Of a DNA stretch of 48,624 bases, positions 37,282 through 39,504 are shown piece after piece; the stretch's first letter is position 1, and every line of letters begins with the position of its first letter. A model generated the notes under the pieces. The model was not told the origin of the DNA, ran no database searches, and saw nothing but the letters and a program-made list of their open reading frames with translations. This DNA is from Actinomycetota bacterium. Its GTDB lineage: Bacteria; Actinomycetota; Coriobacteriia; Anaerosomatales; UBA912. Location of the stretch: NCBI GenBank assembly GCA_018334075.1, contig JAGXSC010000055.1, forward strand, positions 1 through 48,624. Reading direction: 5' to 3'. The translations under genes and the position numbers were made by a program.

Positions 37282-37317
37282 AGGTAGCGGTCCTGTTATG
37301 GGGCCGCTACCTTTTTT
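37282..37317 (+). terminator. Intrinsic terminator after gdhA
   Basis: AGGTAGCGG (37282-37290) pairs perfectly with CCGCTACCT (37304-37312), followed by a run of six T. The right arm contains the stop codon of the convergent cytochrome b gene, so the hairpin may serve both directions, though the minus strand lacks a good T-run. Confidence 0.9.
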
Positions 37318-38005
37318 CGATCTCGCGATACCACAGTCCATGGCGCTCCTCGGCGTACTTGCGATCCACCGTGCCGTCGAGCATCGCCGGTAGCAGATTG
37401 CGGTTCGCTTTTATCGCAAACGCCGCGAAGTGTCCCAGCACGCCAAGTACGATGAGCATCGCCGAGGCGTTGTGAAGTGTTGTGGCCACAAATATAAGCG
37501 TGGGATCCATATCGATTCCGGGCAGGTTTTTCACGACCTTCACCAGGCCGGTGATCGTGACCATGAGCAGGTTACCGCCGATAAACGCATAAGCGAGGCG
37601 CTGCTCGGCAAGATATTTGTGCGAGACGGGCTCCTTGCCCCTGCCGAGCATCGCAGCGATGATCTTCGCGGACTCTCGGAAGTCGCCTCGCCTGGGAAGA
37701 ATGGTGAACCTGCGTGTGGCGATGGTGGAGACGAGGTGCAAGATGATGGCGAAGACAAGGGCCGTGCCCGCTAGATAGTGCATGGTGAGTGTCAGGTGGT
37801 AATCCGCGGTCCAGGCCATGTAGGGCAGAGCGGCCAAGCCGTACCTCGCGTACATCGGCATTTGACCGAAGCCGGAGAAGATCAGCGCGAAGGTTGAGAG
37901 CGCCACAAGCCAGTGAACCAGCCGATTTTCCATCGACTGCCGCATGATGCGGTCTGGTCGTGAGCGGATCTTCCTGCTTGAGCTCGAATCTGCGCGCGAG
38001 GTCAT
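37307..38005 (-). CDS. Membrane cytochrome b subunit (FdnI/HyaC/PhsC type)
   Basis: 232 residues with about four membrane helices (LVHWLVALSTFALIFSGFGQ first). Histidines that could bind two b hemes are placed as in formate dehydrogenase gamma and related subunits: HWLVALSTF, then HLTLTMHYLAGTAL and HLVSTIATRR, and HNASAMLIVLGVLGHF near the end. These subunits pass electrons between quinone and an exported Fe-S protein. The start overlaps the stop of the Fe-S gene (ATGA), so they form one complex. The catalytic subunit is not adjacent. Confidence 0.83.
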   Translation of the reverse strand: MTSRADSSSSRKIRSRPDRIMRQSMENRLVHWLVALSTFALIFSGFGQMPMYARYGLAALPYMAWTADYHLTLTMHYLAGTALVFAIILHLVSTIATRRFTILPRRGDFRESAKIIAAMLGRGKEPVSHKYLAEQRLAYAFIGGNLLMVTITGLVKVVKNLPGIDMDPTLIFVATTLHNASAMLIVLGVLGHFAAFAIKANRNLLPAMLDGTVDRKYAEERHGLWYREIEKR

Positions 38006-38985
38006 TTCGTGCCGCCTTTCCATGCCTTGGAAGCCGCCCACGCGGCTGCGGCCACGCCTGCGATCGGAGCGATGATGTAACCGGCCGCTATGCCGTTAGC
38101 CGTGTCGAGGAAGTTCTCCACCCCAGGCTTCATTCCGGGTACGGTTTTACGCATCGGCTCGGGAAGCTCTTCCTTGCGCTTAGAGATCGCTTCGTCGATG
38201 CGCTCGAAGGGCACAGGGGAAACATAGAAGGTGGAGGTGCCTCCGTTTTCCGTGATGCCGTAGGTGTATCCGCCGATCTCGGCGGCGCGCTCCTCGGCGA
38301 GCTTGCTCATCTCCGTTTTGGGACCTGATTGCAAGGCGCCCGTCGGACAAGCCGACACGCATGCCGGCGGTTGGCCCTCTTCGAGCAAGTCGGCGCAAAG
38401 GTCGCACTTGTACATCACGCCGCCACCCATGAGACCCGGCACCAATTTCATGTAAAGTCCGACCCCTGCCTGGCGCTGCGGAATGGACCAGGCACAGACA
38501 TCGCGACACTTCGCGCCGCCCATACAGCCGTCTTCGTTGATGACCACTGCGCCGTTGGCCTGCTTTTCCTTCACGCTGAACGGGCACAAGTTGGCGCAGG
38601 GCGGATTGTCGCAATGCATACACCTGCGAGGTATGTGGAGCGCGTTCCCATCGACCTCTACGGTCTCGATGAATGACCAGTTGTAGGGTGTGAGCCGGTC
38701 GGTCAGATCACGCTTGTCCGACCAGTCTTCGTGAGTGCCGGTGGGCCAGTTATCGGGTATGTTGTCGACCGGCTCAGGGAAGCGAGCCGCGTTTTTGCTC
38801 CTGCACGCATCGGTGCATACGCCGCATCCGATGCACTTGCTGATATCGATGAAGGTACCGATCTGCTCGACATCAGCGCTGTCATACGCGAGCGCCTCTT
38901 TGGGTAGCGCCAGCGTTGTTGCGCCGGCCGCTCCAGCTGCGGCAAAGCGGGCCAGAAACTCCCGTCTGCTCATTTGATCATCCAT
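38002..38985 (-). CDS. TAT-exported four-cluster iron-sulfur protein (FdnH/HybA/PhsB-like)
   Basis: 327 residues. The N-terminal SRREFLARFAAAGAAGA is a twin-arginine signal. Four Cys groups suit four [4Fe-4S] clusters: CIGCGVCTDAC, CMHCDNPPCANLC, CMGGAKCRDVC, and CDLCADL then CVSAC. A C-terminal membrane helix (GIAAGYIIAPIAGVAAAAWA) anchors it, as in FdnH. Its partner is the cytochrome b gene, with which it overlaps. Related complexes contain a molybdopterin or NiFe catalytic subunit, absent here. It is driven by the promoter and CsoR-like operator at 39049-39077. Confidence 0.87.
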   Translation of the reverse strand: MDDQMSRREFLARFAAAGAAGATTLALPKEALAYDSADVEQIGTFIDISKCIGCGVCTDACRSKNAARFPEPVDNIPDNWPTGTHEDWSDKRDLTDRLTPYNWSFIETVEVDGNALHIPRRCMHCDNPPCANLCPFSVKEKQANGAVVINEDGCMGGAKCRDVCAWSIPQRQAGVGLYMKLVPGLMGGGVMYKCDLCADLLEEGQPPACVSACPTGALQSGPKTEMSKLAEERAAEIGGYTYGITENGGTSTFYVSPVPFERIDEAISKRKEELPEPMRKTVPGMKPGVENFLDTANGIAAGYIIAPIAGVAAAAWAASKAWKGGTK

Positions 38986-39048: not shown

Positions 39049-39077
39049 ATTCTAGAATACCCCTGGGGGTATGTCAA
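39049..39077 (-). promoter_or_regulatory. Consensus promoter of the Fe-S/cytochrome b operon
   Basis: On the minus strand TTGACA (39077-39072, perfect -35) and TAGAAT (39054-39049, -10) are 17 bp apart. Transcription would start near 39042, about 56 nt before the ATG of the Fe-S gene. This is the best promoter match in the window. Confidence 0.85.
39057..39072. promoter_or_regulatory. CsoR/CstR-type operator
   Basis: ATACCCC (39057-39063) and GGGGTAT (39066-39072) form a perfect inverted repeat around TG. It fills the spacer of the promoter above. The sequence strongly resembles operators of the CsoR family, which includes copper sensor CsoR and persulfide sensor CstR. The sensor gene is not in the window. 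Confidence 0.72.
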
Positions 39078-39084
39078 TCAGGGA

Positions 39085-39504
39085 TTACGAAATCCCTTCA
39101 CCAGCGGTGGTGGCGACAAACTTGCCATGTTTCACGCCCTTTGTGCCGATAAGCTCGCTTGCGATTCGCCCGAGCTTCTGGACCTGGCCGCGCAGAACCA
39201 CGACTTCAAGACAGTGGTGGGCATCCAGGTGCACGTGCAGCGAGGAGACGATCGCATCGTGGTGATTGTGCTGCTGCTCGGTGAGCTTGTCGGCAAGATC
39301 GGTCGAATGATGGTCGTAGACCAGCGTGACCGTGCCCACAGCCCAGCTCTCGTCATTGCGCCACTCCTCTTCCACTAGCGCGTTTCGGATAAGGTCGCGT
39401 ATCGCCTCCGAGCGGTTGACGTAGCCCTTCTCGGCGATCAGCGCGTCGAAGCGGGCGAGCAGATGTTCATCGATGGAGGTTCCGAATCTGATGATTTGCG
39501 ACAA
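39085..39504 (-). CDS. nikR: Nickel-responsive regulator NikR
   Basis: 139 residues. A ribbon-helix-helix N-terminus ([29 protein letters not shown]) is joined to an ACT-like nickel domain. The high-affinity nickel ligands of E. coli NikR (His76, His87, His89, Cys95) correspond to His79, His90, His92 and Cys98 here. NikR represses nickel uptake when nickel is high. Translation starts at TTG 39504 with GGGAGGT 8 bp upstream. No nickel transporter gene is nearby; larE elsewhere in the window is a possible nickel user. Confidence 0.93.

Follow-up and report, generated by a model that had tools for sequence, protein, structure and literature searches.

A putative CsoR-family operator in the promoter of an orphan FdnHI-like Fe-S/cytochrome b pair points to sulfane-sulfur control in an Anaerosomatales bacterium

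Which signal controls an orphan electron-transfer pair, and what such a pair might be for, are the questions raised by a promoter in the window, by which we mean the whole stretch of 48,624 nucleotides analysed here. Downstream of this promoter lie the genes of a TAT-exported four-cluster Fe-S protein and a membrane cytochrome b, and the sequence-only reading was right that no catalytic gene adjoins them in the window. That reading had further proposed that the promoter is the target of a CsoR (copper) or CstR (persulfide) sensor. The features concerned are the following.

39085..39504, minus strand: nikR, nickel-responsive regulator, the upstream neighbour (PF08753; NF003381 over cut-off)
39072..39077, minus strand: -35 element TTGACA (read from the sequence; the layout recurs at orthologues)
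39057..39072, no strand: predicted CsoR-family-type operator ATACCCC-TG-GGGGTAT (from the sequence; kept upstream of orthologues)
39049..39054, minus strand: -10 element TAGAAT (17-bp spacer)
38002..38985, minus strand: TAT-exported four-cluster Fe-S protein, FdnH-like, with a C-terminal helix (comparison and model)
37307..38005, minus strand: FdnI-like membrane cytochrome b (PF01292; comparison)

The minus strand from 39077 to 39049 reads TTGACA-TACCCCCAGGGGTATTC-TAGAAT, exactly the enclosed arrangement that had been described. The 17-bp spacer is filled by a perfect 16-bp palindrome, whose outermost A at position 39072 is at the same time the last base of the -35 box, and the Fe-S gene starts 72 bp downstream of it. 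At up to three mismatches the palindrome is unique in the window, its own reverse aside, and shuffled windows gave a mean of 0.08 matches. It has the form of a CsoR-family operator, a G/C-tract pseudopalindrome overlapping the promoter elements, and we predict that it is the operator of the only CsoR-family repressor of the genome. Since the site, the cysteine pattern of the regulator and the set of target genes all match the ScCsoR/CstR type, the operator is assigned to the CsoR family with high confidence and a sulfane-sulfur effector is favoured.

Conservation upstream of orthologues, by which the earlier proposal could be checked, spoke for it. All seven full-length Fe-S orthologues of the Coriobacteriia carry a perfect 12/12 promoter site, and the TTGAC(A/G)-palindrome-(-10) layout is kept in the orthologues L006-L009, as is a TTGAC-operator-(-10) layout in Thermincola homologues (L013, L015, L019). 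The upstream DNA could be read for 79 homologues from several phyla, and a site of at least 11/12 is present in 44 of them (in 31 of these 12/12), compared with 0.8% of shuffled upstream regions; the other 35 have no recognisable site, which we count against our explanation. No site was found within about 1.5 kb of 23 paralogous Fe-S loci. On the tree of the Fe-S proteins, where the Coriobacteriia form one supported group, the operator changes state 15 times, compared with 26.6 times in shuffles, and is thus clustered. At 12 loci of other phyla a CsoR-family gene adjoins the Fe-S gene, and in several of these it stands between the operator and the Fe-S gene. Genome-wide searches needed a tolerance of spacing, ATACCC-N2..5-GGGTAT, as a fixed N2 pattern with three mismatches was too loose (49 matches, 32 in the control). 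The exact motif occurs four times in the 1.89-Mb genome and 38 times in the seven genomes that have the pair (three to eight sites per genome), with none in the reversed control. G/C-rich inverted repeats are common, and the palindrome might be a chance or structural element such as an RNA hairpin, with no regulator; we give this hardly any chance, as it is already contradicted by these tests, by the fixed place of the site inside promoters and by its recurrence at csoR. Moreover, a palindrome lying between the -35 and -10 boxes would not be transcribed from this promoter, which argues against a hairpin.

A single CsoR-family gene (PF02583; G000:C8:26961-27194) is present in the assembly, which measures 1.89 Mb, is 99.7% complete and is kin to the Coriobacteriia. 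The region between csoR and a divergent gene for a CDF transporter contains the palindrome a second time, as ATACCCC-AGG-GGGGTAT, 54 bp before csoR. The proposed search of the genome returned one regulator gene with the same site in its own promoter; the csoR promoter carries the motif in six of the six genomes in which the gene was found. The sensing region of the regulator aligns without gaps to 4m1p and to 7mq1-7mq3, its best solved relatives, which we take to be structures of pneumococcal CstR (the PDB title says CsoR only). Cys42 and Cys71 are retained, the copper-site His is replaced by Ser67 (Cys-Ser-Cys), and the residue preceding Cys42 is Glu, where the copper type has Tyr. Five relatives share this pattern, with Ala for Ser67 in one of them (G073). 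In all six genomes, therefore, the Cys-His-Cys copper site is absent and the regulator has the features of the sulfane-sulfur subgroup, that is, two conserved cysteines and a replaced copper-site His. His66 and a third cysteine, Cys97, have no role in the sulfur-sensor model and are counted against our explanation. Cys97 lies near the C-terminus in a Y-S-A/S-C motif (L137:6935-7234), is present in all six Coriobacteriia regulators and is absent from the other CsoR-family neighbours aligned. Among the latter, the Clostridial proteins of L025, L036 and L050, from Desulfotomaculum-like genomes, have the first Cys, then CH, and no final Cys, and may possibly be another sensor class acting on the same operator; they, too, are counted against our explanation.

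The four sites of the genome indicate what else this regulator might control. One is shared by csoR and the CDF gene, one belongs to the Fe-S/cytochrome b pair, one precedes genes for an exported rhodanese and then a thioredoxin-like protein, and the fourth lies between an MCP-domain gene and a DUF1462-like gene. When the seven genomes are taken together, 35 of the 38 sites are located close upstream of a recurring set of genes: the Fe-S/cytochrome b pair (in seven genomes), csoR/CDF (six), MCP or RidA/multihaem cytochrome/DUF1462 (six), thioredoxin (four), rhodanese (four), a CcdA-like DsbD_TM protein (four), an SBF permease (two) and an FAD-CCG oxidoreductase (two). The rhodanese sites (G000, G034, G105 and G133) bear out the suggestion that sulfurtransferase genes might share the operator. 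A cysteine synthase gene is divergent from the pair in two of the seven genomes. None of the four sites of the genome itself serves a persulfide dioxygenase, SQR or sulfite exporter; such genes under the operator are a frequent companion, not a defining feature, of the CstR subgroup. That neither a persulfide dioxygenase nor an SQR was found there is weighed against our explanation. In Clostridia, csoR follows the pattern in company with genes for thioredoxin, TlpA, a YeeE/YedE-type sulfur transporter of two genes, a YgaP-like membrane protein and the SBF permease and FAD-CCG families shared with the Coriobacteriia regulon. The SBF-family permease, weakly ACR3-like, lies under the palindrome or adjoins the pair at L149, L160, L217, L225 and L012, in both Actinomycetota and Bacillota, and a protein of about 1030 aa with FAD-oxidase, 4Fe-4S and CCG parts lies under the palindrome in two phyla (L151, L157, L218). 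Elsewhere in the genome, TusA-like, DsrE-like, Hdr-like and ArsR-like genes stand in a row (L249:9316-11207, G000:C9), and the palindrome is absent there. One further locus (L159, G105:C45), where the palindrome is flanked by genes for a cysteine synthase, a PLP enzyme, an MBL-fold protein and a CoA-disulfide-reductase-like protein, was set aside because the contig looks foreign and is probably a contamination of that assembly.

The constant presence of the CDF gene raises the question of whether the regulator senses a metal instead, either copper or, as RcnR or DmeR, nickel/cobalt, with a regulon that serves metal or thiol stress and the CDF transporter as its core target. Among the co-regulated neighbours, the CDF cation-efflux gene (PF01545) is indeed the one found most constantly; in each of the six genomes it diverges from the regulator gene at a site that the two share, and copper CsoR has the same type of site. 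However, all six regulators have Ser or Ala where the copper-site His would be, the Tyr that should precede the first Cys is missing, no site was found in the 10-kb region that contains the CopA-like ATPase gene (L248:3779-6124; best match 10/12), and rhodanese, thioredoxin and CcdA do not make a metal-efflux set. We consider a metal sensor quite unlikely and reject copper CsoR in particular, given the missing His and the CopA-like gene without the site; no copper ATPase gene was found under the operator. With both cysteines kept, the copper His lost and the copper ATPase gene lacking the site, the regulator is probably better described as a sulfane-sulfur (CstR/ScCsoR-type) sensor. Thus the family named in the sequence-only reading holds and its sulfur type fits, while its copper type does not.

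Nickel offers a second possible signal, as nikR, a gene missed in the earlier reading, is the immediate upstream neighbour, with about 8 bp between its end and the -35 box. If NikR controlled the promoter, the pair could be the partner of a nickel-dependent hydrogenase, which would suit a genome with several NiFe hydrogenases and an Fe-S protein that scores against HybA. NikR sites, however, consist of two half-sites about 16 bp apart and not of a 16-bp G-tract palindrome. Furthermore, the flanks read in relatives showed no nikR beside the pair, whereas all of these relatives keep the palindrome, and thioredoxin and rhodanese genes are predicted to be under its control as well. As the palindrome is conserved and the neighbour is not, we regard control by NikR as very improbable and rejected it; nickel control of the pair is unlikely, and the adjacency of nikR is probably incidental, with nikR not part of the system.

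A CsoR-family repressor responding to sulfane sulfur, on the other hand, has several characterised counterparts. In Streptomyces coelicolor, ScCsoR binds a 16-bp ATACC-n6-GGTAT site in the pdo, csoR and rhodanese promoters, from which polysulfide releases it via two cysteines (PMC7533328), and CstR and YrkD act like it (PMC9405070, PMC9918477). The system described here resembles that of ScCsoR in the 16-bp pattern, self-control, a rhodanese target and two conserved cysteines, but the targets of ScCsoR are PDO and TauE (PMC7533328), and no PDO is found at the sites of our genome; the targets here are instead an FdnHI-like redox pair and thioredoxin, CcdA, CDF, SBF and FAD-CCG genes. With the CstR repressors of Staphylococcus, Enterococcus and Bacillus (YrkD) it shares the two-cysteine CsoR-family repressor and the rhodanese/sulfurtransferase targets (PMC9405070, PMC9918477) and, in alignment with the S. 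pneumoniae protein, the missing copper-site His; it differs by the extra conserved C-terminal Cys, by a regulon dispersed over the genome and by the inclusion of a membrane electron-transfer pair. TTHA1953 of Thermus thermophilus is also a cysteine-reactive CsoR-family protein with a dispersed sulfur regulon that includes thioredoxin and cytochromes, but its operator, TACNNTACNNNNGTANNGTA, has no G/C tract, and it controls Sox (PMC10318464). In the literature searched, we found no account of this redox pair being controlled by a sulfur-sensing repressor. Judged by those papers, regulation of this kind is familiar in itself, and what is new is that it is attached, in conserved form, to an orphan FdnHI-like module in several phyla.

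The pair itself is related to the electron-transferring subunits of formate dehydrogenase. The best solved relative of the Fe-S protein is FdnH (1kqf_B, E=8e-21), which is also the best fold match of its AlphaFold model (mean pLDDT 76.5), a model that shows a C-terminal helix too; that of the cytochrome b is FdnI (1kqf_C, E=2.4e-8), as expected of an FdnI-like anchor. FdnH/FdnI (1kqf) and the pair have the fold, four Cys groups, the C-terminal helix and the cytochrome b anchor in common. Unlike FdnH/FdnI, the pair has no FdnG in its locus, three instead of four cysteines in the third Cys group, and invariant motifs of its own. Over 81 Fe-S proteins, 15 Cys are invariant, and not the 16 that four [4Fe-4S] clusters of the FDH-N type take, the third group being CxGGxKCxxxC. 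In the nitrate reductase subunit NarH, a Trp stands at the place of the missing Cys, and a [3Fe-4S] cluster lies next to the haem. As the third group of our protein likewise lacks the second Cys of FdnH, its innermost cluster is by analogy probably a [3Fe-4S] cluster. The two genes are paired in 72 of 80 loci. Many anaerobes have the pair, among them Coriobacteriia, Peptococcaceae, Syntrophomonadaceae and Syntrophales, and it reaches no NCBIfam cut-off. Its neighbours include rhodanese (L085), a CoA-disulfide-reductase/rhodanese protein (L075), thioredoxin (L066), DsbD_TM with TlpA (L029), a YgaP-like TM protein (L071), SBF (L012), TatC (L047) and FdhD (L015).

The hope that the operator would point to the missing partner enzyme was disappointed: none was found at the sites of the genome, nor did the 80 loci of the pair reveal a conserved catalytic partner, a further point against our explanation. 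The pair could nevertheless supply the beta and gamma subunits of a formate dehydrogenase (or hydrogenase), with the catalytic subunit encoded elsewhere and sulfur regulation only reflecting sulfur or thiosulfate as the terminal acceptor, and this would be compatible with the regulator assignment. In its favour, the closest solved structures are those of FdnH and FdnI, the genome encodes an FdnG-like protein that most likely contains selenocysteine, the pair is followed in Thermincola by FdhD and MobA, and growth on formate with sulfur or thiosulfate is known from cultured Anaerosomatales (PMC9686372). However, in relatives the FdnG-like gene adjoins its own Fe-S subunit, the third cluster motif has three Cys, unlike that of FdnH, and the 1.01 Mb around 80 copies of the pair hold one molybdopterin oxidoreductase and no hydrogenase, by a hydrogenase motif scan run without a positive control. 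In addition, G055, G063 and G141 have the Mo enzyme, and a close Fe-S orthologue was not found there. On balance, we consider this reading of the pair somewhat unlikely. The individual candidates were rejected, the FdnG-like gene because in relatives it is served by its own Fe-S subunit, and the NiFe hydrogenases because one has its own cytochrome b and nothing ties the other (L247), which has none, to the pair. The FdnG-like gene (L202:5607-9086, G000:C71) encodes a TAT-exported protein, has an in-frame TGA in ARLUHSSTV that most likely encodes selenocysteine, and adjoins multihaem cytochrome genes. A NiFe hydrogenase large-subunit frame in the L246 region (G000:C44:194509-195978) has an internal TGA, a possible selenocysteine codon, and its own cytochrome b downstream. 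The second NiFe hydrogenase (L247:5061-8334, G000:C33; TAT small and large subunit) has multihaem cytochrome genes around it, and the 14 kb of this region showed no gene for a cytochrome b.

We propose that a sulfur-sensing CsoR-family repressor acts on the operator and that the pair is an FdnHI-type relay for sulfane sulfur, a model to which we give a probability of roughly three in four. The reduced repressor would sit between the -35 and -10 boxes and block RNA polymerase. Modification of Cys42 and Cys71 by persulfide or polysulfide would release it, and the pair would then be made along with the exported rhodanese and other thiol-redox proteins. As a relay, the pair would connect the quinone pool with the outer membrane face via its four Fe-S clusters, most likely carrying electrons to or from sulfane sulfur through a separately encoded partner. 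DNA binding, the effector, the direction of electron flow and the partner are the parts of this model that we infer; the operator, its conservation, the regulon membership, the single regulator and its cysteine fingerprint are computed. That the same putative switch guards the pair in bacteria from several phyla points to a job of the pair in sulfur metabolism; the earlier suggestion of a sulfur role was a good guess, unlike its copper sensor. In isolates of the Anaerosomatales (Coriobacteriia), formate or hydrogen supports the respiration of sulfur and thiosulfate (PMC9686372), which would be a plausible setting for such a regulon. The operator strongly hints at when the pair is made and with what, and this makes the role of the pair directly testable. 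A bolder possibility, which we consider unlikely, is that the pair is a stand-alone quinone-linked sulfane-sulfur redox module that has no molybdenum subunit and exchanges electrons, through a high-potential [3Fe-4S] cluster, with the exported rhodanese or with persulfide carriers of the thioredoxin/CcdA type. If this were true, strict anaerobes of several phyla would possess a membrane route, undescribed so far, by which persulfide is reduced or sulfide oxidised.
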